Below are positions 26,111 through 63,761 of a stretch of 64,000 nucleotides of DNA, piece by piece (the first letter of the stretch is position 1; every line of letters starts with the position of its first letter). The DNA is from Bolinopsis microptera. Lineage: Eukaryota > Ctenophora > Tentaculata > Lobata > Bolinopsidae. The stretch lies in NCBI RefSeq assembly GCF_026151205.1, contig NC_087074.1, forward strand, positions 3,534,001 to 3,598,000. Direction: 5' to 3'. The notes below the pieces were generated by a model, which had not been told where the DNA came from, made no database searches, and saw only the letters and a program-made list of their open reading frames with translations. The translations under genes and the position numbers were made by a program.

Positions 26111-26202
26111 GTCTATGTTACCTAAATTAGAACGTATACCACCGACCCGGCCAGTGCACCGGCCGGGTCGGTGGTATACGTTCTAATTTAGGTAACATAG
26201 AC
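26111..26202. repeat. Perfect hairpin, 42-bp arms
   Basis: Left arm starts GTCTATGTTACCTAAATTAG and the right arm is its full complement, separated by 8 bases (AGTGCACC). The stem near the loop is GC-rich (CACCGACCCGGCC). Confidence 0.95.
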
Positions 26203-27355: not shown

Positions 27356-27597
27356 ACTGTCCAAGAGTTTGAGAGTTTGAGAGTTTGGGTTCTGTCTAGA
27401 GTTTGAGAGTTTGAGAGTTTGGGTTCTGTCTAGAGTTTGAGAGTTTGAGAGTTTGGGTTCTGCCTAGAGTTTGGGTTCTCATGCCTATAGTTTGGGTTCT
27501 GCCTAGAGTTTGGGAGTTTGGGTTCTGCCTAAAGTTTGGGTTCTGCCAAGAGTTTGGGAGTTTGGGTTCTGCCTAGAGTTTGAGAGTTTAGGTTCTG
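27356..27597. repeat. GAGTTTGAGAGTTTGGGTTCTG minisatellite
   Basis: Irregular tandem units made of GAGAGTTT and GGGTTCTGCCTA blocks. Non-coding, 5' of SLC27. Confidence 0.85.
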
Positions 27598-28388: not shown

Positions 28389-31300
28389 ATGGAAATGTTA
28401 CACATAGTTCTAGCAATCCTGGTGACGATCCCCACTTTCCTCCTATTTATCGTATCTATCCTGTACTTCCACTATGGTATTGACGGCTGGGACGACATGA
28501 TCCGCGAGTTTAACATCCTCAAGTTCAAATTCTCCTTCGGTTGGTCTCAAGTCAGAATCCAGCGTCGAAAAGTTAACTACATAAAGACTTGGAAACATTC
28601 GGTAGACAAGTTTGGAGATTTGGTGTTCTTGGAAAAGGGAAGATCGACTTATACTTATAACGAGGTAAATTGCAATTTTTATAGGATATCCTGATCAATG
28701 GCACTTCATATCAAATAGACATTAGACATTACACAAGCTTAAGTCATTTCGGATACAAAGCACAATTCCATTTTTGGCCAGGTAGCGCAGTTGGTTAGAG
28801 CGCCAGCTTTGCAATCGTGAGGTTGCGAGTTCGAATCCCGCTGTCTGCCTGGTCGTGGGGTGAGCGTCGTTGACGTTCAGCTAAGGATCCTAAGTGGTCT
28901 ATGCAGCCCCCCGGTCTACTCAGCCGAATACTCGAGAATCGGGTGTGAGGGTTAAATGAGGAGCTGCCCATTGCAGCAAAGTCTCTGGAGAAGAAAGTAT
29001 GGTACACACTACCTTAACCGTCACTGGCCGAGTGAATCCTTCAGCTTCCTGTAATTGGCTGGTTACACTTGTGTAACAATGTGGCTGTTGGAATACTCCG
29101 AAGTAAAATAAGTGTGAGATTTTTAAAAACCTAGTTAAGATTAAATTCTAACAACATAATTCCAAGATCCCATGACATATCTAATAAGAATCATCAGAAG
29201 TCATGATCTTAATTAATTTATCAGCGCAACTTCAATCATCACTGTGATAACAACTCGAAAAAGTTCCACAAATGTAAGTAGATATTTCCAACAACAACTT
29301 TACCCAGATAGACGATCTGAGTAATGGTGTTGGCAAGTTCCTTTACGAGAAGGGTGTAGCGGATGGTAGTGTGGTGGGGATCATGATGACGAACAGTGTG
29401 GAATTTATAGTGTCCTGGCTGGCTATCATTAAACTTGGAGGTCGGCCAGCCCTCTTTAATACCAATCTCAGGTAAATCTAGCATGGCCCTCTTTAATACC
29501 AATCTCAGGTAAATCTAGCAGCCCTCTTTAATACCAATCTCAGGTAAATCTAGCAGCCCTCTTTAATACCAATCTCAGGTAAATCTAGCAGCCCTCTTTA
29601 ATACCAATCTCAGGTAAATCTAGCAGCCCTCTTTAATACCAATCTCAGGTAAATCTAGCAGCCCTCTTTAATACCAATCTCTGGTAAATCTAGCAGCCCT
29701 CTTTAATACCAATCTCTGGTAAATCTAGCAGCCCTCTTTAATACCAATCTCAGGTAAATCTAGCAGCCCTCTTTAATACCAATCTCAGGTAAATCTAGCA
29801 GCCCTCTTTAATACCAATCTCAGGTAAATCTAGCAGCCCTCTTTAATACCAATCTCTGGTAAATCTAGCAGCCCTCTTTAATACCAATCTCTGGTAAATC
29901 TAGCAGCCCTCTTTAATACCAATCTCAGGTAAATCTAGCAGCCCTCTTTAATACCAATCTCTGGTAAATCTAGCAGCCCTCTTTAATACCAATCTCAGGT
30001 AAATCTAGCAGCCCTCTTTAATACCAATCTCTGGTAAATCTAGCAGCCCTCTTTAATACCAATCTCTGGTAAATCTAGCAGCCCTCTTTAATACCAATCT
30101 CAGGTAAATCTAGCAGCCCTCTTTAATACCAATCTCAGGTAAATCTAGCAGCCCTCTTTAATACCAATCTCTGGTAAATCTAGCAGCCCTCTTTAATACC
30201 AATCTCTGGTAAATCTAGCAGCCCTCTTTAATACCAATCTCAGGTAAATCTAGCAGCCCTCTTTAATACCAATCTCAGGTAAATCAAGCAGCTTGGAGGT
30301 CGAGTATAGCGGCCGAGATGGCTCACCAAAATTTTCACTGAAAATTTTGAATTAAAAAATTAATTATACAATTAATCGCAAAACAAAAACGATTTTGAAT
30401 TTGATTTGTAAAATGATTTTAAAATTTAAATAAAAAACGATTTTCATATTGAAATTGAAAACGATTCTCATTTTTAAAACGATTTTGAGTTTGATTTTGA
30501 AAACGATATTGATTTTGATTTTGATTTTGAAAACGATATTGGTTTTGATTTTAAAAACAATATTGATTTTGATTTTAAAAACGATATTGATTTTGATTTT
30601 GAAAACGATATTGATTTTGATTTCGAAAACGATATTGATTTTGATTTTGAAAACCATTTTGATTTTGAAAATGTTTTTTTTTTTTTCCCCCGGTGGCGGC
30701 CGAAATGGCTCAGCTAGCTAATTAGCCGTATGGGATTTATGTTCCGGGGTATTTGGAACAGGTTTAGGGGTTTAAATAGTTAGTACCCGTCCCAAACCAT
30801 CAGAAAAATCAAGTTTCGACCTCCCAACCCACTCAGGCCACTCCCAGAGGCCACGTTCATCCCAAAATAGCTGAAATCCAGGTCGAATCAAGATAGTTAG
30901 ATGGGCGTGGATCCCATACGGCTAATTAGCTAGCTGAGCCATCTCGGCCGCCACCGGGAAAAAAAAATTTCAAAATCAAAATGGTTTTCAAAATCAAAAT
31001 GGTTTTCAAAATCAAAATCAATATCGTTTTCAAAATCAAAATCAATATCGTTTTCAAAATCAAAATCAATATCGTTTTTAAAATCAAAATCAATATCGTT
31101 TTTAAAATCAAAACCAATATCGTTTTCAAAATCAAAATCAAAATCAATATCGTTTTCAAAATCAAACTCAAAATCGTTTTAAAAATGAGAATCGTTTTCA
31201 ATTTCAATATGAAAATCTTATATTTGATCCTTCGAACAGCTGTTGAGCAATGAAACGCAAACATAATCTTAGCAATATGAAAATCGTTTTTTATTTAAAT

Positions 31301-34300
31301 TTTAAAATCATTTTACAAATCAAATTCAAAATCGTTTTTGTTTTGCGATTAATTGTATAATTAATTTTTTAATTCAAAATTTTCAGTGAAAATTTTGGTG
31401 AGCCATCTCGGCCGCCATAGTCGAGGTAAATACTTACTTTTCCTTATAAAAAACTTAATCATGAATAGAATTTATAAAATTATAGTCGCACATTGTCAAA
31501 AATACGTGTAACAAGAAAAGGCAAAAATTGACCCAACAGTTGTTTGTCCCAGAGGAACATCAATGGTGCACTGTCTCCGGTCTTTAACTGACTGCAACTA
31601 CCTGCTGCTAAACGTGGAAGCAAAAGCTCAGCTCGACAGAGAAACACCTATAGATTTCAAGCTGTTGCGAATAACTGTTTTCCTGGCGGACTTATGGTCG
31701 AAGGACATTGGAAACACCATTATTGGAGAAAGAGTTATGAGCATGATGAAGATGATTTCTGATGAGGAAGCACCGGGCAAATGGGCTGGAGATAATAAAG
31801 GTAAGTTTTTGAGAAAACTTTGAGGATTTTGTCATTTTGATAGAGCTTCAATAATTTGATAGATCTTTCTCTCAGTTTGACATTTACTCGATTCTTAAAT
31901 TCAATCTATGACGAATACCCCATTTTCAGCGCATGACGCAATAGTTGGATACTTGTTTACGAGTGGTACCACGGGTTTCCCAAAAGCTGTTCCGATGGCA
32001 TTCAACAGACTTTGGTCTGTACTTCAAGTGGCTCTGATAAACAGGTGGTTATTATTCATTCTCCTCGTGTTTTACATTTTCAAATGATTGTTTGAAAAGC
32101 ATCCGAAGTATCTGAAGTATTTAAAATACTGAGTATTCTGATTATTCTGAGTATTCTGATTATTCTGAGTATTTTGATGAATTTTGCTCTGAAGTCTGAA
32201 GCTGATAAATTATGAGACATTGCTGATGCTCCAGACCTTCTGGTTCCTTATAATCAGAGCCTCATGGACGTCAGACTAAAGTTACTAACTGAACATACTA
32301 GTATGTAATTTCCGAGATCAACTTCTGATTGGTGCACTTACTATAACTCAATTTCAGGTACAACATTACACAGGATGATAAAATGTTTTCCTCCCTACCT
32401 CTTTATCACTCAACAGCTCTCTGTATTGGTCTCCATATTACAATTTTGGTAAGTTTCAAATCGTTAAATAATGAATAAAACCCAGGTTGTAGATACTATG
32501 CTCGCACAACAGGCCAGGGTATGCGTGCAGTTTACACGTACATGCCTCATATTATCGTACCAACGTGGATCAGAATTTAGAGTGGCTTATTAACTGACTC
32601 CGCGATTTAGCAGTACGACTATTGGCCGCTTTTACTAAGTTTTGGTTCTTAGTAAGGCTCTCCGTTATCTTTCAGAAAAATCGTTTAGTAATTTAGCGAT
32701 CGCTAACTTTTCTGCAGTAACCGTAAGAATCATTTTCAGAGTGGAGGCCGCTACATCATCAAGGAAAAGTTTTCAGTTCAAACATTTTGGAGTGACTTAA
32801 GGGCGCACGAAGCCACAATCTTTCTCTACGTCGGGGAAATGTGCCGATTTTTACTCAACCGAAAAACATCATTTCAACCAAAAGTGGAATACCAAACTAG
32901 GCTAGCCTTAGGAAATGGCTTAGGAAAAGACATTTATACTCCCTTCAAGGAAACGTTCAAGATACCTCAAATAGCTGAGTTTTATGGACAGACGGAATGT
33001 TTAGCTTTTCTTGGATCAGTGCTGAACAAACCAGGGTCACTGGGGTACATTCCTAAAATAAAGCTCGGTCCCCAGCCATACAGGTAACGAACGATCTCCA
33101 ACAAACGGGATCGGCCAAAATAAGTCCTTTTAAATGAAGTTATTAAATTTAAACTAATTGATACTTTAATAAGTTTAATATTATAAATTGCATCGAATTA
33201 CGACCAATGTTCAGATGCTGCACAATTACCTTCATCACACAGACATGGTTTAATGTGATCTTTGAGTCGTTTGCTGGAATTGTATACCAGTTTGCAGATC
33301 CACATGGCGCGATGGGCGGCTATTTTACATTATTAGCTGTTATCGTTATAACGGTTAGGTCAATAAATATCAGGTCAATTTATTATTATCATCGCCTCCG
33401 TAGCTCAGTGGTTAGAGCACTGGTCTTGTAAACCAGGGGTCATGAGTTCAATTCTCATCGGAGGCTGATTCAGTGACCTAGTCACCTTTTGGAGTGATTC
33501 GAAGAGAATCTTGTGAAGAGCAGTTTGTTAATGTTGCTTGGATTTGCCATCATCGCCTCCGTAGCTCAGTGGTTAGAGCACTGGTCTTGTAAACCAGGGG
33601 TCATGAGTTCAATTCTCATCGGAGGCTGATCATCAAGACGTGATCTAGTCACCTTTTGGAGTGATTTAATACCATATTGACTTACTTGACTTAAGGTGGC
33701 TTCAGCGTCCGAGTATTGATGCGCTGTCTCCATAGAACTCTATCCGCCATAAGTCCGCCCATTTCTCCAGTGTCGTTGAGACCCGTATCAGCTCGTAGGC
33801 TATCAACATAAGTCATCATGGCTGGTCTTCCCCTACTCCGCACCCCATGAGTTGGTTCCCAGAGTAGCAAGCGGTTTGCGACTAGTTCTGGGTGCCGGTG
33901 GATATGGCCTGCTAGTCGCATCCTGCGCTCTTGGATCTTCATGGTTGCTCTCGGTAGGTTGCCATAAACTTCTTTGTTGGTTTTGCGCTGCTTCCAATCC
34001 ACATTTAGTGCCATCCTTAGCATTTTAGTGTAGCAGCCATCAATGCGTTTCTTCAATCGTTGCTCTGTCAACGTCCACGTCTCAGAACCATAAAGAAGTA
34101 TTGACTCCACAGTAGCAACAAATAGACGGATCTTTAGTCCTCTTCTAAGGTCAGACTTCCACATCTTCTTTAGCTTGTGGCAGGCTGCCCAAGACTTAGC
34201 TTTTCTGACCCGCAGGTCCCTCTCTGTTGTTGCTATCCATGCTCCAAGGTAAACAAAGCCTGTCACATTTTCCAGCTGGTTTCCAGAACAGCTATTAAGA

Positions 34301-36125
34301 CTACTCGCCTCCTCTGTCATGTTCAGAGTCATGAACTTAGTTTTAGTGTCGTTCGTGGCTAGCCCAACACCCAGTGCTGCTTTCTGAAGCCTGTCCAGGA
34401 GTAGTTTTGCCCCTTCAATGGTATCAGTGATAAGGGAAACATCATCTGCAAACTCGACGTCTGCGATCTTCTCGGCACCAATCCTTCTACTCCGTGCAGG
34501 CCTGAGAGTGAACCCAGAGTATATAATTTTTTAATTCGCAGGGTGATACAATGTGATACAGAGACATTGCAACCAAAGCGAGACTACCCTACAGGCCTCT
34601 GTAAGCTCTGCAACATGAATCAAGCTGGACTTCTCATTGTTAAATCTGAAAACTTCGGTAACAGTAAGTAAAATCAAAATCTCCATCCGCTGAAAATACC
34701 AAAGCCAATAATGAATCCAAGTCATATTGTGTGTCCTTTTCAATGATCTGTTATAACTATTTTTTACTTTTATTCAGGAACAATATACCACAAGAGTAAT
34801 CAAGATGTGAGATTTCTGTCTGACGTGGAAAAGAAAGGAGATGAGTTTATCAATACTGGAGATCTAGTGATGATTGGAACGGACAGATCTTATTACTTCG
34901 TCGACAGGCTAGGAGACACTTTCAGGTTTGTGGGTCAATCTAGTTCTACAATCCAGTGTTGCTTATTGATTATTGTTATTGGGTGCACGATTTTTTTTCA
35001 AACTAATCTACAAACGTATAAATTTGCTTTTATATTTTGTTTATAGCATACTTCTATAACATTCACCATTTAACACGTGGTTACCCAATCAGATGGAAAG
35101 GAGAGAATGTGGCGACCCAAGAAGTGGCGTCCTGTATCAACAAACTCGCCTCCGTTCACGAAGCTTGCGTTTACGGAGTCACTATACCCGGTAAGTTATT
35201 ACGGAGAGTTATCAGTTTAACAGTAATGTTATTAATTTAAGCAGTTAGCTAACATGCCCGGTATTGAGAAATGAAATAAAGTTTTTGGTTTGCTCAGATT
35301 TCAATATTGAGAGAAATCATAGGATGGAAAATCAAAGTCAATTTAATGTTTCACTTTAAAAACTTGTGTCCTGTCATGTCGTGAATCCTTCTGCTTCTTC
35401 TTTATATCTCGTGAGTATGACGTTATGCTCATCCTAACTAAATTAATGTTCACGAATTTTGGAATATTAGATTTATCTGTGAAAGGAATTACTATTAGCC
35501 TAGGATTATGATCCCTCAAATTAAATTTTAAGTCAAAGACTTGACAGCTAAAATAAATATACTATCAAGGTCACTCAAAGTCTGAGAAACCATGCATTTG
35601 CTTTTCGCAATAAAACTGTATTTGAGGCTCAATATCCGATACCCCCAGGACATAATGGTAGAGCAGGTATGGCAGCGATAGTTGTAGATTCAGAGGACAC
35701 CTTCTCCCTTGAAGCACTGTACGAAACTCTTTCTAGCAACTTGCCGAGTTACGCTGTCCCTATCTTCGTCAGGTAATTCCTCAGTATTCCGTTCTTTATC
35801 TTAGAATATTCTTAACCTCATTATGCTTACGATATCCATGACCAAATGTACTACGGATTTCGTCATTTTAAAGATTTAAATCCCCTGTAATAATGACTGC
35901 CACTAAAATGCTAACCATATCTTTCTATTCCCTATCAGGATGGTTCACTCACTGGAGACGACCGCGACCTTCAAGTATAAAACAAATCAACTGAAGCAGG
36001 ACAACTACGACATGAGCGTGATATCAGGAAACCTTTATCTTGTTAACCATAGCCAGAGGACGTACGAAATAATGACTCTTGAAACCAATGATCTGATTAA
36101 GAAAGGAGAAATAAAACTGAATTGA
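28389..36125 (+). CDS. SLC27A: Long-chain fatty acid transport protein / acyl-CoA synthetase
   Basis: Exons: 28389-28664, 29308-29471, 31553-31800, 31930-32044, 32358-32448, 32740-33083, 34542-34657, 34778-34925, 35093-35190, 35649-35772, 35939-36125. All GT-AG and in phase, 636 residues. An in-frame ATG at 28248 would add 47 hydrophobic residues; 28389 gives the usual family length and the usual start with one membrane segment (LAILVTIPTFLLFIVSILYF). Landmarks: NTNLR, the AMP/ATP motif YLFTSGTTGFPKAV, FWSDLRAHEATIFLYVGEMCR, the FATP/VLACS motif [20 protein letters not shown], and LPSYAVPIFVR near the end. The family activates long and very long-chain fatty acids to CoA esters at ER, peroxisomal or plasma membranes. 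The paralogue (A1-A6) is not resolved. Introns are full of repeats; intron 2 carries a donor-site minisatellite. Confidence 0.93.
28776..29082 (+). mobile_element. tRNA-derived SINE
   Basis: Starts with a tRNA-like head (GGCCAGGTAGCGCAGTTGGT, B box GAGTTCGAATCCC, TTGCAAT in the anticodon position) whose stems pair poorly, followed by about 230 bp of conserved body and TTACACTTGTGTAACAATG at the end. A second, inverted copy lies at 60709-61026. It is in intron 1 of SLC27. Confidence 0.8.
29449..30290 (+). repeat. 35-bp minisatellite that repeats an exon end and splice donor
   Basis: 24 units. The first is the real 3' end of SLC27 exon 2 (GCCCTCTTTAATACCAATCT then CAG) and its donor (GTAAATCTAGCA); 23 more follow, the last 22 in exact 35-bp register from 29521 to 30290. 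Units end in CTCAGGTAAATC or CTCTGGTAAATC. After the array a further stretch of exon text (CTTGGAGGTCG) reappears near 30292. In the exon frame, any unit downstream of the first meets TAA immediately after the first donor, so only the first donor gives a full-length protein. Confidence 0.95.
30305..31420. repeat. 1.1 kb foldback element
   Basis: Arms 30305-about 30735 and about 30905-31420 are inverted copies. Outer ends read GGCCGAGATGGCTCACCAAA and its complement, inner ends GGCTCAGCTAGCTAATTAGC and its complement, with a spacer of about 170 bp. The arms are mainly AAAACGATATTGATTTTGAT-like repeats, which produce spurious KIN/IVFKI and ILILKT frames. The right arm has an extra piece of about 70 bp near 31217-31286 bounded by CAATATGAAAATC on both sides. 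It is in intron 2 of SLC27. Confidence 0.9.
33394..33466 (+). tRNA. tRNA-Thr (TGT), third copy
   Basis: Same sequence as the copy at 18853, all stems paired. About 85 bp upstream (GATGGGCGGCTATTTTACAT) and about 40 bp downstream (TCACCTTTTGGAGTGATT) are shared with other copies. In intron 6 of SLC27. Confidence 0.88.
33555..33627 (+). tRNA. tRNA-Thr (TGT), fourth copy
   Basis: Same sequence as the third copy, 88 bp after it, with the same CTAGTCACCTTTTGGAGTGA tail. In intron 6 of SLC27. Confidence 0.88.
33691..34520 (-). pseudogene. LINE reverse transcriptase fragment (second family)
   Basis: An open minus-strand frame from about 34515 to 33691. It contains the catalytic FADDVSLITDT box, then ENVTGFVYLGAWIATTE, SILLYGSETWTLTEQ, RRMRLAGHIHRHPELVANRL and RSRGRPAMMTYVDSL, the C-terminal end of a non-LTR retrotransposon. 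The N-terminal half of the RT and the endonuclease are absent. It differs from the fragment at 13030-14054 (FADD against YADD, different tail). It is antisense in intron 6 of SLC27, ending about 20 bp before the acceptor of exon 7. Confidence 0.88.
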
Positions 36126-39870: not shown

Positions 39871-42800
39871 ATGACTTCATTCGAACAAAGTCTATTCCTT
39901 ATTTGCCTCTCGTGGATGTTCAAGATAGGATATGGTGATGCGAGTAAGTTTGATTTTTGTATACAAAAACTTGTCATCAATGCTTATATTTCATACCAGT
40001 TTGTATATCGAAAATACATGAAATGTACTAAACATTTATAGTAATAAATTAAATCCTCCAGCAATTTACGGAGTCAGTAGAACAAGTGTGGCTGGAAATC
40101 CAGGCAGAGTAGATTGTCAACTGAAAAGTATTACAACCGAACCAAATCAATACATTTGGAAACTTGGAGACCAGATCTTACAAACTGGTTCTGACTACAC
40201 TATTGAAGTGAAGCCCTTGTTCTTCGGTACTCAAGACATTGTTTTGTACATAGATAGTTCTCCTGCTGTAGATACGAGCTACACTTGTATAGCTGACTGG
40301 GGAGGAGATAATACCGTATCTACAACTGCTCTACTTGATATAATCAGTAAGTTTACTCGCAAGGGGGCAAAAATATTCTCAAATCATTTACGTCATTTAC
40401 GAGACAATTATAAAACCTGGCATGTGATTTTTTATTTTGTTTATGTATGCAGGTGTCACTCCGATTAACGTAGTCGTGGAGCAAGGTCAGACAGCAACCA
40501 ACGTTGTTCTATCCTGTGTGGTATCTGGATGGGCAACAGACCTCAATAAGTGTAATCAGGTATCTTGGGTGGACATAGGACAAGATTATTCTCCTGCTCC
40601 AATCTATACTGGAAACTATCAGGCTGAACTCACCATCCCTTCTTCTACAGTGGATATAACTTATACTTGTAGATGTGATCGATCTGTGGTGGATAACATC
40701 GACGTCCCTGTTTATCTGGACTTTATAGGTAATAAAATCAATGCAGAATTTTGGCAAACCAGATCGAATAAAAAATTGTTTGATTACCTTTTCGGCGTTA
40801 AATATTGACATAATTTCTGGGTAAATTTAGGGATGACGTTAGAGGACAGATACGTTGTGATGAGTGCAGACATTGAAGTAACCTGTAGTATATCCCAACT
40901 CTTGAACACTGTATCTGTTCAATGGAGGGATTCAGATGGACAAGTCATCAGTGACGATGATTATTATTCGACAAATCAAGGAAGTAAAGATGAAAGTGGT
41001 AACCAGTATTCTATTCTTACAATATCAGCTTCAAAGCTGCAAGCCCTTGGTTCAACTTCTGTCACGTATTCCTGTCAAGTTCTATCTGGAGACCAGACAG
41101 TTGCAATCACAAAAACCATGACTTTAACCCTCTATGACTTTGGTTAGCAACTCTAGTTTGAAAGACAATTTCTTTCAAGATCAGGATTCAATTCATAATG
41201 TTGGAAGTCATGCAAATCCCTAATGATCTTAAATGTAGAGGGCTACTAAATAAACGCCGAACAATTTGTAAATTATATTTCAATCCACAAGAGTATACAA
41301 TTCATCATTTAAAAATGATAAATTTTCTCATAAACAGTAGGAGTAAGTCGAACAAGTCAAGCTGGAAATCCAGGCAGAGTAGATTGTCAACTGAAAAGTA
41401 TATCAACTGAACCCAATCAATACATTTGGAAACTGGGAGACCAGGTCTTACATACTGGTTCTGACTATACTATTGAAGTGAAGCCCTTGTTCTTTGGCAC
41501 TCAAGACGTAGTTCTGTACATAGATAGTTCTCCTGCTGTAGATACGAGCTACACTTGTATAGCTGACTGGGGAGGAGACAACACCGTATCTACAACTGCT
41601 CTACTTGATATAATCAGTACGTACGAACTGAGGATGGAGTTTTAAGGAAAGTTCAATACCTTCTTTTAAGAATCATCCGATAGTTTTGATACGTTTATTA
41701 ATCTACCACAAATTCATTTGATCAATTTATATAAACCCATCAGGTGTAACTTCATTAAATGTGATTCGGGAACAAAATGATCAGCCTAGAAGTGGTCAGG
41801 AAGCAACTAATGCTGTTCTCTCCTGTGTGGTATCTGGATGGGCAACAGATCTCAATAAGTGTAATCAGGTATCTTGGGTGGACATAGGACAAGATTATTC
41901 TCCTGCTCCAATCTATACTGGAAACTATCAGGCTGAACTCACCATCCCCTCTTCTACAGTGGATATAACTTATACTTGTAGATGTGATCGATCTGTAGTC
42001 AGTGATATTGAAGTTTTGGTGTCACTGGACCTAATAGGTAAACAACACGCCAAAAAAGTCCATGAGCAAATTTAGGGTGCTTCTGGATAATCTTATAATC
42101 AGAAGTGATTGCTGCAGCGAAAATATTCCGTTCGCGTTTACAACCAATAATAATCAAAAAGAATCACAACAAATACGTAAAGAAATATATGAAATAACTT
42201 TCAGTGGTTACGTTAGAGGACAGATATGCAGTCATGAGTGCAGATATTGAAATCACCTGCAGTATATCACAACTCCTTAACACTGTCTCTGTTCAATGGA
42301 AGGATACAAATGGACAAGTTATTAATGATGATACTTACTACTCCACAAATCAAGGAAGTAAAGATGAAAGTGGTAACCAGTATTCTACTCTCACAATATC
42401 AGCTTCAAAGCTACAAGCTCTTGGTTCTTCAGTCACATATTCCTGTTTCGTGTCATCTGGAGACGACTCATCTGCCATCACAAAAACCATGACTCTAACT
42501 ATTTACGATTTCAGTAAGTAATTTTGCAATAATTTTAACCATATAACTAGAAACAAAGACTGTAAAGTATGAACGGTGAAAATTACACTTTTATGTTGTG
42601 GACCGGCCTGAAGTATCAGCCAATGTTTACTCAAAAATATATATAATAAGTGTTATCAATTCAAAGTCAAAAACTCACACAAGATTAGATATTATTGAAA
42701 CGATTAAAATGGAGCTTATCGAGCAAAACATAGCTGAGCACAGATAAAGTTGCCTTTAGGATTGTAAAGTTGAAATTATCGTATTAATGCACTTTTGGAG

Positions 42801-45800
42801 TTGTTTGAGTGGAAACAGGCGCATAGCTACAGCTAGCTCGCTATTCCAAAATTCAAGCAAGCGACAAAACAAATCAACAGGTGGTGTAAGTCGCACGACT
42901 GTGGCGGGAAGTAGGGGACGAGTGGACTGTCAGATAAAAAGTATTTCTACTGCACCCACCCATTACATCTGGAAACTTGGAGAACAGGTGTTACAAACTG
43001 GGTCTGACTACACTATTGAAGTGGGTGCCATGTTTTTTGGATCACAAACCACTATCCTGTACATAGAAAATTGTCCTACTGTAGATACGAGCTACACTTG
43101 TATAGCTGACTGGGGAGGAGATGACACAGTATCTACAACTGCTCTACTTGATATCATCAGTAAGTTCATCAAGGGGGAAAAATGTTCACAAATAATTTAC
43201 TTCATTTACGAGACAATTATAAAACCTGACATGTGATTTTTTATTTTGTTTATGTATGCAGGTGTCACTCCGATTAACGTAGTCATGGAGCAAGGTCAGA
43301 CAGCAACTAATGTTGTTCTATCCTGTGTGGTATCTGGATGGGCAACAGACCTCAATAAGTGTAATCAGGTATCTTGGGTGGACATAGGACAAGATTATTC
43401 TCCTGCTCCAATCTATACTGGAAACTATCAGGCTGAACTCACCATCCCCTCTTCTACAGTGGATATCATTTATACTTGTAGATGTGATCGATCTGTGGTG
43501 GATAACATTAATGTCCTTGTTTACTTGGATTTCATAGGTAAGTTGAACAAATTTCGAAAGAGGTTATTCAATGAATATCCATAGAAAAAGCAGGAACATA
43601 ATATAAATAAAATTTTAGTGAACTATTAAAGATTTATTTCAGATGTAACCGTAGAGGACAGATACGAAATAATGAGTGGAGACATTGAACTTACCTGCAC
43701 TATAACCCAACTCCTAAATACGGTTGTTGTTCAATGGGGAGATTCTGAAGGAAATGTCATCAGTAATGATGATTATTATACGACAAATCAAGGGAGCAAA
43801 GATGAAAGTGGTAACCAGTATTCTACTCTTACAATATCAGCTTCAAAGCTACAGGCTCTTGGTTCAACTTCTGTCACGTATTCCTGTCAAGTTCTATCTG
43901 GAGACCAGACGGTTGCGATCACAAAGACAATGACTTTAACTCTTTACGATTTCAGTAAGCAATTTTGCAATAATTTAAACTACACCACTAGAAATAAAGA
44001 CTAAAAGGCATAAATAAGCGTAACAGTCCTTAGAATATTCATTTGATGCAATTAGATATAGGACCACAAAAATTCACGAAACTTCAAAATAATGCCCAGG
44101 TGGTGTAAGCCGCACGACTGTGGCGGGAAGTAGGGGACGAGTGGACTGTCAGATAAAAAGTATCTCTACTGCACCCACCCAATACATCTGGAAACTTGGA
44201 GAACAGGTGTTACAAACTGGGTCTGACTACACTATTGAAGTGGGTGCCATGTTTTTTGGATCACAAACCACTATCCTGTACATAGAAAATTGTCCTACTG
44301 TAGATACGAGCTACACTTGTATAGCTGACTGGGGAGGAGATAACACCGTATCTACCACTTCACTACTTGATATCATCAGTAAGTTTACTTAAGCAAATAT
44401 ATCCCCTCCGAATCCTTTAAAATAGTGGTTTTAAATTCCTGAGCATTTGATTACGTTTATAACGGGAACTTTGAATGCCACATTAGTCATACTAAACCCA
44501 ATCCAGGTGTGACTCCGATAAATAATATAATGGAACAAGGTCAGACAGCAACCAATGTTGTTCTCTCCTGTGTGGTATCTGGATGGGCAACAGACCTCAA
44601 TAAGTGTAATCAGGTATCTTGGGTAGACATAGGACAATATTATTCTCCTGCTCCAATCTATACTGGAAACTATCAGGCTGAACTCACCATTCCCTCTTCT
44701 ACAGTGGATATCATTTATACTTGTAGATGTGATCGATCTGTGGTGGATAACATTAATATCCTTGTTTACTTGGATTTCATAGGTAAGTTGAAGAAATTTC
44801 GAAAGAGGTTATTCAATGAATATCCATAGAAAAAGCAGGAACATAATATAAATAAAATTTTAGTGAACTATTAAAGATTTATTTCAGATGTAACCGTAGA
44901 GGACAGATACGAAATAATAAGTGGAGACATTGAACTTACCTGCAATATAACCCAACTCCTAAATACGGTTGTTGTTCAATGGGGAGATTCTGAAGGAAAT
45001 GTCATCAGTAATGATGATTATTATACGACAAATCAAGGAAATAAAGATGAAAGTGGTAACCAGTATTCTACTCTTACAATATCAGATTCTAAACTGAAGG
45101 CTCTTGGTTCATCTTCTTTTACGTATTCCTGTCAAGTTCTATCTGGAGACCAGACGGTTGCGATCACAAAGACAATGACTTTAACTCTTTACGATTTCAG
45201 TAAGTAATTTTGCAATAATTTAAACTACACCACTAGAAATAAAGACTTAAAACTATAAATAAGCGTATCAGTCCTTAGAATATTCATTTGATTCGATTAG
45301 ATATAGGACCACAAAAATTCACGAAACTTCAAAATAATGCCCAGGTGGTGTAAGCCGCACGACTGTGGCGGGAAGTAGGGGACGAGTGGACTGTCAGATA
45401 AAAAGTATTTCTACTGCACCCACCCAATACATCTGGAAACTTGGAGAACAGGTGTTACAAACTGGGTCTGACTACACTATTGAAGTGGGTGCCATGTTTT
45501 TTGGATCACAAACCACTATCCTGTACATAGAAAATTGTCCTACTGTAGATACGAGCTACACTTGTATAGCTGACTGGGGAGGAGATGACACAGTATCTAC
45601 AACTGCTCTACTTGATATCATCAGTAAGTTCATCAAGGGGGAAAAATGTTCACAAATAATTTACTTCATTTACGAGACAATTATAAAACCTGACATGTGA
45701 TTTTTTATTTTGTTTATGTATGCAGGTGTCACTCCGATTAACGTAGTCATGGAGCAAGGTCAGACAGCAACTAATGTTGTTCTATCCTGTGTGGTATCTG

Positions 45801-48800
45801 GATGGGCAACAGACCTCAATAAGTGTAATCAGGTATCTTGGGTGGACATAGGACAAGATTATTCTCCTGCTCCAATCTATACTGGAAACTACCAGGCTGA
45901 ACTCACCATCCCCTCTTCTACAGTGGATATAACTTATACTTGTAGATGTGATCGATCTGTGGTGGATAACATTGATGTACTTGTTTACTTGGATTTCATA
46001 GGTAAGACGAAAAATAAGGCGAAATTACCAAAATGTATCTGAATGTTTGAAACTGGTTTTGTCCATGATGTAAGGAACTGTCCAGTATACATTTTAATAA
46101 TAATTGATATGATCAACTGAACATGATTTCAGCGGTTACGTTAGAGGACAGATATGCAGTCATGAGTGCAGATATTGAAATCACCTGCAGTATATCACAA
46201 CTCCTTAACACTGTCTCTGTTCAATGGTCGGATTCAGATGGACATGTTATTAGTGATGATACTAACTACTCCACAAATCAAGGGAGTAAAGATGAAAGTG
46301 GTACCCAGTATTCTACTCTAACAATATCAGCTCAAAGACTGCAGGCTCTTGGTTCTTCAGCGACATATTCCTGTCGGGTGCTCTCGGAAGACGAAACAGT
46401 TGTGATCACAAAACCGATGACTTTGTCTATCTATGCTTTCAGTAAATATATCGCTTATGTTTATTTTAGGTTTTTCTATTTATGTGGATGTTGGATATGA
46501 CGTTCAAGCTAATTATAATTTCATACCTTCCTGTACTCAGAGAGTCCAGGCGTTAATAAACATTCCCATAGGTGCTACGATTACTCCTGCCACAGCAGAG
46601 GTGTACACAACAGATGACCATGTGATCAGCTGCTTATTGGAAAACATTCCTGAACAAATAACTGGTGTACAATGGAGCCCAGCTACACAAACATCTGATG
46701 AATATAATCTAGAGGATGGAAATCATAGTGGAACTTCTCAAACATCAACGCTCACAGTATCGAGCACAAAGCTGAAAATATTACTGTCTTCCAGCGCCTC
46801 TTATTCTTTACCTGTAAGGTAACCCTTGGGTCCTCAAACTCACAATTTACAGCCACACAAACAATTACTATCTATAATCCGACTGTAGCATTGACCGGAC
46901 CTACAGCGGTTACGAATATAGTGCCGGCCACTTTAACCTGTACTTTATCTGGGATCTTTATATCAAGCACTGTTACGTGGTCCGGAGGAGACCTTCCTAG
47001 CTCGGGGATATCCGTCTCTACAACGACATTTACTCTTTCAAGTGGGTCTTACAACGGTGCGAGGAATGTTCAAACTCATACCCTTACTATATCTGCAGAA
47101 GCTCTGAGTAACCTAGGTTCCAGTACCATCTTCACATGCTCCTTGACACCAGGGAACACTCCTGTCACTGACCAACACTCCCTCTTAATACTCTATCCTG
47201 AGGTAACTCTACAACCAATATTCAGTTCCGAGCTAGCTGCTGGAAACTCCTTTACTCTAACCTGTAAAGGAACTGGAGTCGATCCAAACCTCATGACAGT
47301 AACTTCTTTTTGGACGCACGATGATGAGAATGTTAGCCCTGGTTTGATCACTACTACCACTGTCACAGCCACTGTGGTCGAGGCAACATTGGAGTTCGCA
47401 AACATGCAAAGCTTATTATCAGGCGAATACAAATGTGGGATTAATTATGGTGGCGGGATAATATACAGTGACCCAACTTCAGTATCAATTCCAGGTATAC
47501 TTTACTTCCCCACTTCATCTTTGGTTGTCGAGGGACAAACCCTGACAATATCTATCGTTACGGTTACCCTATCATCAGCTAAGACGATTAATTGGTACAA
47601 GAACACCTTACCCTTGGATCTGAGCGATTCTTCTCTAACAGTAACATCAGCAGAAACAACGGAGGGATCGGATAAGAAGACTACCTCTACATTGGTGTGG
47701 ACTGATGTTGCTGCTAGTCACCAAGGCGCAACTCTACGTGTCGAGATATCCACTGATCAGTATTTCCTGAAGAGCGATATTGCGCTTGTTAACGTTCTAC
47801 AAGTTTACACACACCCTAAGATTACAAGCTTCTAAGAGGTGTAGGTACGTACATATACTGTTCGTTTGAAGGACCACCCCAACCCTCAATTGTGTGGCTG
47901 GCTCACTCCTCTCCCACTTCATCAGGGACTGAAGTGTTAGACGGAATGGTGAGGCTAACTTCCCTCAACCCTACCTCCACTTCAACTGTTTACCAAAGTA
48001 GACTTACTGTAAATGCAGACGAAACTACAACAGATCTGTACCGAAGTTGTCGAGCTGCTTATCCGTCATCTAACGGCAAGAATGTGTTCACCGGCGGAAC
48101 ACTTTTCACTAAAGTAGCTCGATTATTTCCTATTGGTATCATCTCACTCACCGGATCCAATACTGTCAGTGCTGGAGAATCCGCAATCTTAACAGCAAAA
48201 GCAGATTATCCACCCGAACCACAGTTTGAGTGGAAGTTTAATGAGAAAATAATTGACCTCGACTTGGCTGCAGGAAAAAGGGTTTCCAGTACCGTGTTTG
48301 AATACGTGTTTACAAAAGTGGACATGCAAGTTCAGGATAGTGGGTTTTATAGTGTGCTTGCCAGTTACAATGACTATGGCTCATCAACATTCGAACCAAT
48401 ATCTGTTGAAGTAGTAAACACATGTCCACAACTAACAGCTCCAAATAACGGTGGTATCACGTGCAACCCTGTGTCCTACTCAGCAGACACGTCAGCCTCG
48501 TGTGCAGTAACCTGCAACACTGGGTACCATCTGCAAACCACAAAATCAGTTTACACTTGTACCAACGGTATCTGGGATCACCAATCCGTCACTAACCCCT
48601 CCAGCAAAGTTAGCAAGTGTTTAAGAACGGTAAACCCTACCTCTTTCTCCGTTACAGTTTCAGTCAGTTACAAATTACCGTGGTTAGCTTCCTGTTCGGA
48701 TTACTACGGGGACTACCTCCGTCTCTCATTCCCTTATCTTCTAGCAGCAGCTCCTCTTTCGTGTGTATCTGACGGTGACTGCTATCTCAATAATAACTAT

Positions 48801-51800
48801 TTCTATTATGAGACCTCGACTGCTGCTTGCTTTACAACTGGAGATAGCATCTGGTTGAAGGGGCAATATATCCAGAACACAAACACCAACAATGACAGAC
48901 GAAACGAAGTGTTCACGCAGATTTCAGAGTATTTGGAATCAACCACCTTCGATCCGTTTACGCTGATGAGTGCTGCAGACTGTGTTGATTCCTGTGGGTG
49001 TTGCATCAAGGACACTTGTATAAAAGCCCCGAACACAGGTCATTTCCCAGCTAAAATGCTCATCAAATAGAAGGAAGCGATCATCTGATAACCAACCCGA
49101 CTTTTCTAAAATTCAAATCGGGAGTCTGGGGAGTACAGGTCAGATAACAAAACAACAGGAAATGTCATGCAGTGCTGGCTCAGTTCCAGAACAAGGCAGT
49201 TGTCTGGTATGTGTTGAGGGGACCTACCAGTCAGGTGACCAGTGTGTTGAATGTCCGATTGGTTCCTACCAGGACCAACCGGGTTCTACTTCTGCAAACT
49301 TTGTCCTTTCAGAACATTCGAGACCCACTCTGCATCGTGTGATCAGTATTGCGAGCTGAGTGATGTTGTATTTGGAACAAGCGATCCACTTGCTGGAGCT
49401 ATCGTTCGAATTGGGGATAGTGTAAGTATTATTTGTAACGATGGATACCAGTTTGGAGGTAAGAGACGCGTAGTGAAATCATTGAAAAGCTGCAGAAACC
49501 AGCCTTCGTGCACAAGAATTAAAATAAGTACAAAAACACTGAACGTACTGAATGGTGAACCACTCGATCTTACTTGCAGAATCACTACTGCTGCATCTCC
49601 TGAACAGTGTGTCTTCTACAGAGAATCCCAGCAAGTCAATACTCCGACCTCCGTCAGGTTTGAGGAAGGACTTTTCAGGTGCGACACGACTGTTCCTTCA
49701 GTGCAGAGAGCTGACGAAGGGTCCTATTCCTGTGCTGTGTACTTTGACGATGGACATGAATTCAGTAATAGTATAAACATAACAGTTATGGAATTAAGAT
49801 TTGATTCCACTGACACGATGTTAAAAGAAGGAACTAACCATTATATCCTATGCGAAGCAACAGTCCCTTCTGATTCTGCAGTTGTAATCTCTTGGACTAA
49901 GAACGGACAGTCAGTGGGTGAGCGCCTGACTTCCACCTCCACTTCAACCATGGCTATCTTCAACCTGGGGAAGGTTACATTGTCGGACCAGGGGGACTAT
50001 CAGTGTCTGGCCACCTATCTTGGTATCGGCACTATCGTGTCAGAGCCTTCCCTACTAACAGTGCTAGGGTTTTGGGAGAAGTTAACGGATGTGGCGGTTA
50101 TGAAGGGCACCTCTGCAACACTAACCTGTATTCCTACATTTGGTGAAGTTAGTTGGAGTCTCAACAATATCCCTCTTCCAATAACCGCCACATCTCTTGA
50201 AATCGTATCTGTGAGCGAAGAAAACAATGGGACATACAAATGTGAAGCTAGATATGATAAAGATACCATTAATTCTACAGCAACAGTCACTGTATCCACT
50301 GAAGGCATTATCCAGCATCCAGAAGACAACACAATACGGTCGGGAGAGGAAACCACGGTCACGTGTGCTACAAATGTGGATGCGACCTTCACATGGTTCT
50401 TAAACAATATTAAAGTTTCCTCTGGCGTCAGCAGCACTGAAAGCAGTTCCACCCTGGTGATCTTCAATCTTCAGAGTAGGTCCAGTGTGCAATGCGTGGT
50501 AAATACAAGTGACGGGTCTATGTACCCTTCTAACGTCGCTGCGATGAATGTCATTGGTTTCATATCTTCCCCCGGACACAAAGCAATACCCCTGAGTGGG
50601 GTAGCTACTCTTCACTGCTCTCTCCCGGGAGAAGGATTGAAGCAGCTCATGTGGTTGAGATTAGATGATAACAATCCCATTCCAGATAGCTGGGTTGAAA
50701 CTTTTATTACTGGATACACAGCAACCAGTTCTATGAAGACCACTGCTGAGGGTAACTACTTCTGTAAGGCGCTGTTTGAAGGGAACATTACTATTGAATC
50801 AGAAATGGGAGCTGTCACTACAGTTCTCATCACTATCTCCAGTCCACCTGTCACTCTCGGAGAGGATACAACTCTTACATGTTCAATTGTAGGAGCTGCT
50901 ATACCTAACACTGTTTACTATACAAGAGATGGAGAACTAATCTACAAAGATCATAGTTCTGACCGTGAAACACATGACGGCATCTTTAACAGCTATCTAA
51001 AGATACCCTCTATAAGCTTAGCTGAGGTGGGGGAGTACCGGTGTGTGGCGTTTCTCACATCTGATCTCACCATGTACAGATCAGATCCCAGCTTAATCCT
51101 TATGGTAGGGTTTGTGGATTTGGTAACTAATGTCGTGTTGAGACGGGGTTACAGAGGGGGTTTCACGTTTAGTGTCAGATACAGAGACCATCTGGAGGTG
51201 TCGTGTGAGCTGTCTGAAGGTGATGTGCACCTGGAATCAAGTGATGTGGTTGGTGATGTGATCCACTACCGAGCGGAGGTAATGAATGTTAAATACGAGG
51301 TTAGAGAAGTTCAGTATAGTTGTAGCGCTGACTATGGACCTGATATCCTATTCAAATCTCACAAAAGCAAGCTCTACTTTATTAATGAACCTAAACTAAA
51401 GGTGGGAAGTTCGAATGTCCTAGTTGGTGATACTGCAGTGATATCTTTAACTGCTGAGTACATTTTCAGAACACCTTCTGTTTACTGGGAAGTTAATGGA
51501 TTAACTAATCTTCAATTCAATGATTCCGATTCCGGAGGAATGTTTACGAGTGTGCTACAGTTAAAGGTGACACAAGATATTCAAGTTGAGGCTACAGTAG
51601 AGCACAAAGATGTAGGCAGTGACTCTTTGCTCACGACCGTTGTTAAAGTTGTTGGTGTTACCGGAATCACCGGACCAGAAGCAGCTTATCTTGGTGACTC
51701 CTGTAATCTTACATGTAGCGTTGTAACCATTAGTGATGAAACCCTGGTCACGTGGTATCACCAAGATAAAGAGCTCATGCCACATATTACTAAGCATTCC

Positions 51801-52325
51801 AACTACCTGTTATTGTCAGTTGTCGTCATATCAAATCTTACAAAGGAAGATTTTGGAATTTACGAGTGTAAAGCTAGAATTTCAGACGAGAAAACCTCCG
51901 CAAGAACGTTTAACCTCAGAAAAACTGATAATTGTAAAGTGCCAGTGATTGATAAAGCCATATTGAATACAACCGTAAAGACAATGTCTCACTTGAGTAA
52001 GATAAGTGCAGCATGTGGCCCTGAAATGTTTGTCTTGAGGTGTAAAAATGGTGCCTGGGATAGATCCCTTACACAATGTCCGGGTTGGAAGAAAAATACT
52101 TGGTTGATCATAACCTCTGCGATTGCTGCTTTTGTGGTTATTCTCATCGCGAGTTTTAGTATTTTCTTTTACAAGAAACTACTAAAAGAGGTAGTTTCAG
52201 TTAATCCACCTAACACTTCAATGCAGTCCGAACAGTGGACCAACAACATTAGCGGTTCTGCTGTCATAAACAACTCCAGTGCTGATAAATCTGTTTTAGA
52301 TAACGTTATCAGCAGGGAGTCGTGA
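39871..52325 (+). CDS. Giant type I receptor: Ig array, CCP, GCC2/GCC3, TM
   Basis: One gene is inferred because only one signal-peptide exon (39871-39943, MTSFEQSLFLICLSWMFKIG) and one membrane helix (ITSAIAAFVVILIASFSIFF, near 52110-52170) are seen. Between them are five A-B-C triplets of Ig exons (15 exons, all phase 1-1) and one 5.75 kb exon with about 15 Ig domains, a sushi/CCP module, a cysteine-rich region, a GCC2/GCC3 module and two CCP-like segments. The cytoplasmic tail is about 50 residues with no ITIM, ITAM or kinase. The N-terminal Ig domains show the C...W...C pattern. Cell-surface adhesion, immune or allorecognition roles are inferred from architecture. Four frame breaks near 46.80, 47.83, 49.05 and 49.28 kb interrupt the last exon. 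Two or more separate genes, or alternative use of triplets, are possible. Confidence 0.75.
40062..41142 (+). CDS. Ig triplet 1 (exons A1, B1, C1)
   Basis: A1 40062-40346, B1 40453-40728, C1 40831-41142, each entered and left in phase 1. A1 follows directly from the signal exon (GYGDA then TIYGVSRTS). Type A has VDCQLKS, YIWKLGDQ and SYTCIADWGGD. Type B has VVLSCVVSGWATDLNKC, WVDIGQDYSPAP and YTCRCDRSV. Type C has DIEVTCSISQLLNTVSVQW, TNQGSKDESGNQYS and TYSCQVLSGDQ. C1 ends at a weaker donor (G|GTTAGC) than the other C exons (A|GTAAG). Confidence 0.85.
41338..42513 (+). CDS. Ig triplet 2 (exons A2, B2, C2)
   Basis: A2 41338-41616, B2 41744-42037, C2 42205-42513, phases 1-1. This is the most divergent triplet at its edges: B2 starts GVTSLNVIREQNDQPRSGQE and is 18 nt longer than the other B exons, A2 uses a GTACGT donor, and C2 ends its domain with SCFVSSGDDSSAI. 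The C2 opening (VTLEDRYAVMSADIEITCS) is nearly the same as that of C5, not of C1 or C3. Confidence 0.85.
42881..43954 (+). CDS. Ig triplet 3 (exons A3, B3, C3)
   Basis: A3 42881-43159, B3 43262-43537, C3 43643-43954, phases 1-1. A3 (VSRTTVAGSRGRVDCQIKS, EVGAMFFGSQTTILYIENC) and the A3-B3 intron are almost identical to A5 and its intron, the only visible coding change being THY for TQY. C3 opens DVTVEDRYEIMSGDIELTC. The frame of A3 stays open upstream to 42787, so an alternative first exon cannot be ruled out. Confidence 0.85.
44100..45199 (+). CDS. Ig triplet 4 (exons A4, B4, C4)
   Basis: A4 44100-44378, B4 44507-44782, C4 44888-45199, phases 1-1. The B4-C4 intron and both flanking exons closely match those of triplet 3. 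B4 opens differently (GVTPINNIMEQGQ) and reads WVDIGQYYSPAP. C4 has ISGDIELTCNITQ and SDSKLKALGSSSFTYSC, the most changed C exon. Confidence 0.85.
45345..46441 (+). CDS. Ig triplet 5 (exons A5, B5, C5)
   Basis: A5 45345-45623, B5 45726-46001, C5 46133-46441, phases 1-1. A5-B5 is almost identical to A3-B3 including the intron. C5 (AVTLEDRYAVMSADIEITC, SAQRLQALGSSATYSCRV, ITKPMTLSIYAF) is C2-like. Its GTAAAT donor leads to the long 3' exon. Confidence 0.85.
46572..52325 (+). CDS. Long 3' exon: Ig, sushi, GCC2/GCC3, Ig, CCP-like, TM, tail
   Basis: The acceptor at 46571 is entered in phase 1. Domains in order (nt): six Ig-like 46574-48420; sushi 48424-48620 (CPQLTAPNNGGITC to VSKC); cysteine-rich unknown 48630-49060; GCC2/GCC3 49165-49340 (CLVCVEGTYQSGDQCVECPI); CCP-like 49340-49510; nine Ig-like 49515-51930 (for example NNGTYKCEARY, VGEYRCVAFL, FGIYECKARI); CCP-like 51930-52080; transmembrane helix; tail. 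The frame changes four times: at about 46801, about 47830, between 49024 and 49067, and at about 49283. In each case domain homology resumes at once in another frame. From 49283 to the stop the frame is open for about 1,010 codons. Confidence 0.75.
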
Positions 52326-54897: not shown

Positions 54898-55895
54898 ATG
54901 ATATTTTTGTTGATCTCACTGCTATTCTCTGGAAGAGTATCTCTGATTGAAGGTAGGTTAGTTTAGTAGGCATATTAGGCCATCACAGCCATCACATCAA
55001 TATAAATAAATTCGTATTTGTCATATATTTAAGTTTTTACAAAAACAACTCCAAATACCAATTATTTTACATTCTTTATCGCAGGAGAATCGCAGGTCAG
55101 GCCAGCTCACGTTTCTCAGAGCAGTACTTTAAAATATGCGGGTCAAGTTGAGGAGGCAGAAGACGCTATCGATGGTGATCTGACAACAAAGTCACATACT
55201 GACTGTGCTTGGGACACTGATATCTGGTATAAGATGACATTTGATGCTATCTACTGCTTCTCTAAGGTAGTTATAGTGCAGTCTCACACAAATGGATTTG
55301 GTAATCGCATGGATGGAACGAACGTTTTTGTTGTCAACACTGAAACAGGAACCAAAAGTCTTTGTGGAGTTCTAAAAGTTGGAAGTGGTACGACGATTGA
55401 AAGTCAGACGTACACAATACCTTGTGATCAGAAGTGTGGAAATGAATTTAAGCTGACCCTCCGACATGACAAAGCTACATTTTACGTACCTGATGCCTGC
55501 ATTCACATGAAAGAAATCATGGCATTTTACACAGGTTTAAACGAGTTTCTTTTTGCAGGATTTTCCTCGTTTCATATCGGATCGGCTGTAAGATAGGAAT
55601 CAAATTATGTGACACAAACATATTTATGTATGAGGTTAAATATTAAATAAAACTTGAATAAACTTTTGTAGGATGCACCAGGAAATATTATCTAGAATCA
55701 CGACCATTTCAGGTCGGTTTTGTGACGGATTTGATGTACAGAATGGTACAGTTTCACCCGGTGGCAGTGTGAGAGAGGGCACAGTCATTACAGTGACCTG
55801 TTCACGGCCAAACCGCTACGTTCTGATTGGTGAAAAGAAAGTCACGTGTCAGTTTGTTGAGGGATGGTCAACAAAACCAGAATGTCGAAAATGTG
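54898..55895 (+). CDS. Secreted F5/8C(FTP)-like plus CCP protein, copy 1 (3' end open)
   Basis: Exons 54898-54952, 55085-55534, 55713-55895, all phase 1-1. Exon 1 is a signal peptide (MIFLLISLLLFSGRVSLIEG). Exon 2 is a discoidin/F-type-lectin-like domain: ESQVRPAHVSQSST, AEDAIDGDLTT, WYKMTF, RMDGTNVFVVN, SLCGVLKV, IPCDQKCGNEFKLTLRHD. Exon 3 is a sushi/CCP module (CDGFDVQNGTVSPGGSVREG, VTVTCSRPNRYVL, KKVTCQFVEGWSTKPEC). The exon 2 donor is CAG|GTTTAA; a stronger GTAAGA lies at 55588 but joins out of frame. Exon 3 ends in phase 1 at GTAAGA, so further exons are expected, but none was recognised before 56.8 kb. Probably an extracellular recognition protein. Confidence 0.72.
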
Positions 55896-56835
55896 GTAAG
55901 AACCTTTATAGTTATAATAGGAATTCGGTTTACTATCCCGATAATTCTGGTATTGATCACAGCTGATAAAATATAAAATCATGCGACCTAATAGTTCATC
56001 ACCGTTACATAAACGTCCCCAAGAATTTATGACAGCTGACAAATAGTATAAAGTTCTAAACAGAGCTTAAGGATTGTACGGAAAAGTAGTTAAGGCATTG
56101 CTTTTCGGTACAAGTCCTTTTAATTGATTCATGATTGATTAATGTGTATTTAAATTTAATTCGTTGTAACTCATTTTGCTCGCTTACGTAACCATCTGGG
56201 AACTTTAAATTATATAACTTGCCAGATGATTAATTATAGTCATTAGTATTCTACAGGCACCAAATAGTTAACAAATAACCGTCATTGTGATTATCATCAG
56301 TTAAAAGATACGCTTTCAATACGGCGTAATATGACCATTTTTATCTTGAAAAAGACATCAATACTTTATAAAGAGTTTTGTAATGATAAGTATACAGTAT
56401 CTAAAGATTCTTATTTCGCTATTTTATCTTCACTTCATTTTGATTGTTATTATTTAGATCTTACGCTTAAAATCATGAGTATTGATAATGAGATTGCATT
56501 TATAAGTTTCAAGTAATGGTTATCAATATATTATAGACGTACTATGACCATTTTTATTGTGAAAGAGACATTAATAAAACAAAGTTTAACACCCTTTCTC
56601 CTAAAGATCTTAATATTAAGTATTAACACTGACGAAAAACGGAAAATCCGTCTAAATCGAGGTCCAGATCAGGAAGACCATGCATCTTGTTAAAAACAGA
56701 AACATTCTTTATAAAGGAGCATGTAAACAACGTGTCATTAGACAGTTGTGAATATCGAGGACTTGGACTATCAATTGAGCTGATCAGGGGATCCTTTCCG
56801 AAAAAACTTTTAAGTGGCACTTAAGTGTATGGTCG
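55896..56835. other. No further exon recognised
   Basis: AT-rich; the downstream exons expected for the lectin-CCP gene were not found. Two similar words (ATGACCATTTTTATCTTGAA and ATGACCATTTTTATTGTGAA) lie at 56331 and 56543. Confidence 0.4.
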
Positions 56836-62774: not shown

Positions 62775-63761
62775 ATGATATTTTTGTTGATCTCACTGCT
62801 ATTCTTTGGAAGAATACCTCTGATTGAAGGTAAGTTAGTTTAGTAGGCATATTAGGCCATCAAGGCAATCACATCAAAATAAATAAATTCATTTGTCGTA
62901 TATTTAAGTTTTTACAAAAACAACTCCAACTACCAAATATTTTACATTATTTATCGCAGGAGAATCGCAGGTCAGGCCAGCTCACGTTTCTCAGAGCAGT
63001 ACTTATACTTTAAATAAGGCAGAAAACGCTATTGATGGTTATCTGACAACAGTATCACATACTGTATGTGCTTTGGACACTGATATCTGGTATAAAATGA
63101 CATTTGCTGCTATCTACTGCTTCTCTAAGGTAGTTATAGTGCAGTCTCACACAAATGGAAATAGGTATCGCATGGATGGAACCAACGTTTTTGTTGTCAA
63201 CACTGAAACAGGAACCAAAAGTCTTTGTGGAGTTCTCAAAGTTGGAAGTGGTACGACGATTGAAAGTCAGACGTACACAATACCTTGTGATCAGAAGTGT
63301 GGAAATGAAGTTAAGCTGACCCTCCGACATGACAATATATTGTATATATATGTATTTGATGCCTGCATTCACATGAAAGAAATCACGGCATTTTACACAG
63401 GTTTAAACGAGTTTCTTTTTGCAGGATTTTCCTCGTTTTATATCGGATCAGCTGTAAGATAGGAATCAAATTATGTGACACAAACATATTTATGTATGAG
63501 GTTAAATATTAAATAAAACTTGAATAAACTTTTGTAGGATGCACCAGGAAATATTATCTAGAATCACGACCATTTCAGTTTGGTTTTGTGACGGATTTGA
63601 TGTACAGAATGGAACAGTTTCACCCGGTGGCAGTGTGAGAGAGGACACAGTCGTTACAGTGACCTGTTCACGGCCAAACCGCTACGTTCTGATTGGTGAA
63701 AAGAAAGTCACGTGTCAGTTTGTTGAGGGATGGTCAACAAAACCAGAATGTCGAAAATGCG
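62775..63761 (+). CDS. Secreted F5/8C(FTP)-like plus CCP protein, copy 2 (3' end open)
   Basis: Exons 62775-62829, 62960-63400, 63579-63761, the same phases as the copy at 54898. The signal peptide is MIFLLISLLFFGRIPLIEG. The lectin-like exon is 9 nt shorter: the stretch between SST and AIDG reads YTLNKAEN instead of LKYAGQVEEAED, and TTVSHTVCALDT replaces TTKSHTDCAWDT. The CCP exon is nearly unchanged (VREDTVVTVTC for VREGTVITVTC). Substitutions concentrate near the N-terminal face of the lectin-like domain. Further exons would lie beyond the window. Confidence 0.72.

Follow-up and report, generated by a model that had tools for sequence, protein, structure and literature searches.

The DNA analysed here, a 64,000-nucleotide stretch of the Bolinopsis microptera genome referred to as the window, contains what is on balance best read as a single gene encoding a giant, single-pass ctenophore surface receptor of the Ig superfamily, with an ectodomain for adhesion or ligand capture and a history of duplication, exchange and intron loss. 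The predicted protein would have about 30 Ig domains in total, half of them in a repeated array. Its distal half would be a stalk of repeated A-B-C Ig units that increases reach and avidity, and its proximal half, running through Ig domains, sushi, Cys-rich domain, furin-type site, GCC2/GCC3 and further Ig domains to a transmembrane (TM) helix, would be a conserved core common to paralogues on contigs C4 and C1. In the first step of the proposed history, a three-exon unit would have been duplicated, array growth being eased by phase 1-1 exons; in the second, sub-triplet segments would have been copied between repeats; and in the third, about 25 introns would have been lost from the 3′ half in one or a few events via reverse-transcribed cDNA. 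Coordinates are window positions, and contigs C1, C4, C5, C7, C9 and C10 of the genome are distinct from the Ig exons named C1 to C5.

The 5′ half consists of a signal exon followed by five A-B-C triplets, 15 Ig exons in all, exactly where the initial annotation had placed them:

39871-39943, + strand: exon 1, with the start codon, a signal peptide (MTSFEQSLFLICLSWMFKIGYGDA) whose hydrophobic core is visible in the sequence, and a phase 1 donor
40062-41142, + strand: triplet 1 Ig exons, A1 40062-40346, B1 40453-40728, C1 40831-41142
41338-42513, + strand: triplet 2 Ig exons, A2 41338-41616, B2 41744-42037, C2 42205-42513
42881-43954, + strand: triplet 3 Ig exons, A3 42881-43159, B3 43262-43537, C3 43643-43954
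44100-45199, + strand: triplet 4 Ig exons, A4 44100-44378, B4 44507-44782, C4 44888-45199
45345-46441, + strand: triplet 5 Ig exons, A5 45345-45623, B5 45726-46001, C5 46133-46441

The array spans 40062 to 46441. Its introns are GT-AG throughout and 102-367 bp long, its Ig exons measure 276-312 nt, each divisible by 3, with all junctions in phase 1, and stop codons are absent from the signal exon and all 15 Ig exons. Such regularity of phase and length across 15 array exons cannot be due to chance. Copies of the same exon type share 76-99% DNA identity (A, B and C each compared within type), and similarity between the three types is weak and at the Ig level. A profile search of each domain, as proposed with the initial annotation, recognised the 3′ Ig domains strongly, C exons weakly (C1-set, 0.0016), B exons weakly (Ig_3, 0.028) and A exons not at all. 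A is nevertheless assigned as an Ig domain by transitive homology, because it matches an Ig array on contig C5 (E 4e-4) whose own exons match Ig_3 (best 1.8e-8). An AlphaFold model of the A domain has eight strands (pLDDT 61), for which Foldseek returned almost exclusively antibody-like matches, none of them significant (best E 0.018). In the assembly, the B exon matches only the five copies of the array, and outside the locus A shows no more than weak similarity at the Ig level; A and B are essentially private to this locus. The weak A matches include three within open frames of 1109-1319 aa at contig C3:21006236, 21139388 and 21151313, which are possible intronless Ig genes.

C-like Ig exons by contrast recur in several giant arrays, on contigs C5 (15.99-16.05 Mb, an alternation of two exons), C9, C7, C1 and C10. 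Given this recurrence, giant Ig arrays are a general feature of the genome, the window gene being one of them. In two of the arrays the Ig exons are spaced almost exactly evenly, at 1040 bp in 11 copies of the same score (contig C9:10552302-10562946, - strand) and at 947 bp in six copies of the same score (contig C1:16754134-16759120, + strand); these may be either very young arrays or assembly repeats.

Growth of the receptor by triplet duplication, as first proposed, is supported, and the triplets are mosaics of each other, produced by gene conversion or repeated unequal crossing-over atop that duplication. Triplets 3 and 5 are nearly identical from the A exon through intron A and over most of B, and triplets 3 and 4 from B to C. 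By triplet number, the A exon groups as 12/345 at 42 sites, intron A as 135/2/4 and 135/24, and C exon sites back both 125/34 and 134/25. Overlong identical runs join triplets 1-3, 1-5, 2-5, 3-4, 3-5 and 4-5 (P<0.0002 versus shuffled sites), with edges that ignore exon borders. It is the combination of discordant groupings in adjacent segments with long identical runs that points to gene conversion or unequal exchange.

An array that demonstrably recombines could vary in triplet number, and phase 1-1 exons permit in-frame gain, loss or skipping. Both properties would suit a self/non-self (allorecognition) receptor diversified by triplet number and sequence between individuals, the role put forward in the initial annotation, as would a single-pass protein with an Ig/CCP ectodomain. 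The array copies themselves argue otherwise. Pairwise dN/dS between them ranges from 0.05 to 0.47, and because all 30 values lie below 0.5 the copies are conserved rather than diversified; B is nearly the same in four of the five. Purifying selection therefore acts between array copies, which also weighs against an innate immune receptor.

Downstream of the array the gene continues without introns to its stop codon:

46572-52325, + strand: 3′ stretch, intronless over 5754 bp, that contains the sushi and GCC2/GCC3 domains, about 15 Ig-like domains, the TM and the tail
48423-48581, + strand: Sushi/CCP domain (Pfam PF00084, E 2e-4, just above the gathering score)
48630-49050, + strand: Cys-rich domain that Pfam does not name; identity with the contig C1 and C4 paralogues 47-66%
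49069-49080, + strand: furin-type motif RRKR (SNRRKR/SS), with RRRR at the corresponding position of the contig C4 paralogue
49189-49340, + strand: GCC2/GCC3 (Ephrin_rec_like) repeat, interrupted by the fourth frame break (PF07699, E 2.4e-5, narrowly passing the cut-off)
49500-51900, + strand: about nine membrane-proximal Ig domains (seven Ig_3 stretches; YxC motifs)
52107-52325, + strand: TM helix (WLIITSAIAAFVVILIASFSIFF) and tail, the only tail tyrosine lying in a juxtamembrane YKK

Ig_3 reaches 7.8e-55 across the last 1024 aa, where I-set and related models are also strong, and Ig_3 and related models match the preceding frame blocks too. Pfam scores 11 Ig_3 stretches in the 3′ part; the about 15 further Ig domains originally counted there fit by eye. 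The sushi and GCC2/GCC3 domains were each confirmed by one Pfam match, and the single TM with a short cytoplasmic tail of about 45 aa was likewise borne out. Profile recognition of Ig-fold domains thus places the predicted protein in the Ig superfamily. The Cys-rich domain is among the best conserved parts that the window gene has in common with the contig C1 and C4 paralogues; an AlphaFold model of it (pLDDT 42) was discarded. The furin-type motif suggests that the protein is possibly processed into two chains.

What had been described as a 5.7 kb exon stands as a homology unit ending in TM and short tail, but not as one open frame. Four frame breaks, missed by the initial annotation, lie near 46812, 47834, 49052 and 49292 and divide the stretch into five frame blocks (stop-to-stop frames 46421-46822, 46729-47835, 47820-49070, 49024-49359 and 49251-52325), so that the full-length protein cannot be encoded by the locus as assembled. 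The stretch is open throughout only in its last 3.0 kb (49293-52325). All four breaks are indels, and the frame blocks contain no nonsense codons. The first falls outside the homology with the contig C4 paralogue, inside a single Ig domain; the last three are indels rather than introns because that paralogue aligns continuously through each of them. Short introns were considered as the cause of the breaks and rejected on this continuity, and none of the breaks lies at a former intron.

These breaks would be either assembly errors or a recent null allele. In a control of ten single-exon iGluR genes of the same genome (about 27 kb), seven are intact and three (L039, L040 and L047) carry one frame change each. 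This rate, about one per 9 kb, means that some assembly-derived breaks are to be expected, and a single break in the window would be unremarkable. The published Bolinopsis assembly came from wtdbg2, Illumina reads being used for polishing (PMC10232365), and residual indels from that procedure are plausible if the assembly used here is the published one. Four breaks within 2.5 kb nevertheless exceed the control rate, about three in 27 kb, which leaves some room for a young pseudogene whose frame breaks are real and whose gene has recently died. We consider this rather unlikely: the 15 array exons are all intact, as is the last 3.0 kb, recent array copies still show dN/dS well below 1, the breaks are exclusively indels, and assemblies of noisy long reads contain such errors even when polished. 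Moreover, the 3.0 kb frame stays open at about 57% amino-acid divergence from the contig C4 paralogue, which requires long coding constraint.

The same 3′ core occurs in two copies in inverted orientation on contig C4 and in one copy on contig C1, in the order Ig, sushi, Cys-rich, furin-type site, GCC2/GCC3, Ig, TM and tail. The window protein follows this order. Its alignment with the + copy on contig C4 comprises 24 collinear matches (43% identity) that begin in the second domain of the stretch and reach the juxtamembrane domain, and that paralogue retains the TM, FFYKK and a related tail. The contig C1 paralogue is known mainly as search matches, and the sharing of TM and tail was read on contig C4. 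Since domain order is kept through to the TM on contig C4, the 3′ half belongs to one gene, as had been assumed from the outset, and not to several unrelated ones. The three intron-bearing paralogues share about 87-92% DNA identity where sampled, introns included, and as recent duplicates of each other they count as one lineage.

The paralogues share the core of the window gene and differ from it in being intron-rich. For the + copy on contig C4, GT-AG introns could be fitted to 25 of the 26 gaps that separate the matches, 13 of these introns being in phase 1; the total of about 25 is an estimate, as a few modelled introns fit weakly. Over the same stretch the window has none, a contrast beyond the reach of the initial annotation, which had no other sequences to compare, and its 5′ exons keep theirs. 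Loss of adjacent introns through cDNA is an established model (PMC3652778), whose hallmark is many adjacent introns missing precisely and with a 3′ bias; here about 25 consecutive introns are missing, and the retention of the 5′ introns fits the bias expected of this route. The 3′ half therefore looks, from the comparison of gene structures, like a product of cDNA-mediated intron loss. We infer both direction and route: one or a few losses make a far simpler history than about 25 gains within the contig C4 lineage, and gain of introns in the lineage of the contig C4 and C1 paralogues is a formal but less likely alternative. The window also holds reverse-transcriptase-like fragments, of LINE type by eye (13058-14017, + strand; 33694-34530, - strand), a possible source of the enzyme.

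Alternatively the gene may be chimeric, its 3′ stretch being a retroposed copy that inserted on the 3′ side of an unrelated Ig array, to which it became joined by splicing, rather than one that lost its introns in place. The stretch is intronless through to the stop codon, and A and B have no counterpart upstream of the core in the contig C4 sequence read; nor was the A-B-C array found in the sequence read around the contig C4 and C1 cores. Yet the start of the stretch is a normal phase-1 domain boundary and its first domain is C-like by eye, and the contig C4 core likewise starts with a C-like Ig exon. Neither a poly(A) tract nor a target duplication is evident by eye at the 3′ end, though such marks would have decayed. 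We regard a chimeric origin as possible but less convincing than intron loss within a single gene.

We infer an adhesion function for this single gene from the architecture of its product. The tail carries no kinase, ITIM or ITAM motif and no tyrosine beyond the juxtamembrane YKK, so signalling, if any, would need a partner. Tyrosine-based (ITIM/ITAM-like) motifs are found in the tails of the Hydractinia Alr proteins, and a motif of that type is absent from the tail of the window protein. The fester protein of Botryllus is a CCP/sushi membrane protein and is not known to be Ig based; the window protein shares the CCP/sushi domain in a membrane protein but is Ig-dominated and comes from a ctenophore, not a tunicate. 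SVEP1/polydom-type proteins combine sushi with GCC2/GCC3 modules, as here, and are secreted and not known to carry a large Ig array or TM, both of which the window protein has. Like Hydractinia Alr1 and Alr2, it is a single-pass Ig-superfamily membrane protein, and it differs in that it is encoded at one locus, has about 30 Ig domains and lacks a tyrosine motif. The Alr genes form a large complex of related genes in which two determinants are highly polymorphic (PMC11067881). A search of the assembly revealed no such cluster, given the distribution of A and B described above, and only one array of this kind.

An allorecognition receptor is accordingly highly improbable. Apart from the selection, tail and single-locus evidence, the host is a ctenophore and neither a colonial cnidarian nor a tunicate, and Mnemiopsis allografts held for days in the classical experiments of Coonfield (1936/1937), as cited in PMC10309991. 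We found nothing direct in the literature on ctenophore allorecognition. The proposal thus has no positive support, and of the giant Ig/CCP membrane receptor first described it is the large single-pass Ig/CCP/GCC2-GCC3 protein that stands and not its allorecognition role; a large adhesion or ligand-capture receptor is likelier. An innate immune receptor whose Ig array binds microbes, and which varies by splicing or copy number as other expanded ctenophore receptor families do, is a better candidate than one for allorecognition and still an unlikely one. Hundreds of I-set/V-set genes are reported in ctenophores, with Ig expansion in Mnemiopsis, Bolinopsis and Hormiphora, and these domains are listed among candidate immune-receptor domains in the portion of PMC11797021 that treats them; sushi and Ig domains are also common in such receptors. 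Against this, dN/dS gives no sign of diversifying selection and a signalling motif is absent. The window gene resembles that expansion in being built from Ig domains and differs in its three-exon higher-order unit and long intronless half; PMC11797021, in that same portion, counts domains and does not describe genes of this type.

The rest of the window is mixed in content. Two closely similar exons without a confident Pfam name lie on the + strand at 55033-55593 and 62908-63459, the former followed by a sushi-like exon at 55658-55963. There is an F5/8 type C (discoidin-like) exon at 7269-7655 on the - strand (PF22633, 4.1e-8) and an AMP-binding enzyme exon at 32707-33084 on the + strand (PF00501, 5.9e-9). 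Four tRNA genes, equal in score and all on one strand, and a 5S rRNA gene occupy 16872-33627 and 3230-3348. At 1099-2978, 29447-30292 and 30385-31217 there are large minisatellites, with 56 repeats of 33 bp and 24 of 35 bp, and two AT-rich repeat arms in inverted orientation. As to host affinity, two iGluR ligand-binding domains of the genome score 227 and 240 bits against Mnemiopsis ML032222a and 199 and 208 against 4zdm, which we take to be from the ctenophore Pleurobrachia. The next chain, from another animal, reached 113 bits in the first search, which places the host among the ctenophores. The best identity to ML032222a was 71-77% among the loci compared, so that the host is probably a species other than Mnemiopsis. 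A search of the genome for mitochondrial COX1 gave no match.

The locus shows how a giant ctenophore Ig receptor is constructed: phase-1 exons are duplicated as triplets, with gene conversion below the level of the triplet, and the resulting array adjoins a core from which about 25 introns have apparently disappeared. It also provides a concrete locus at which variable surface recognition in ctenophores may be tested.
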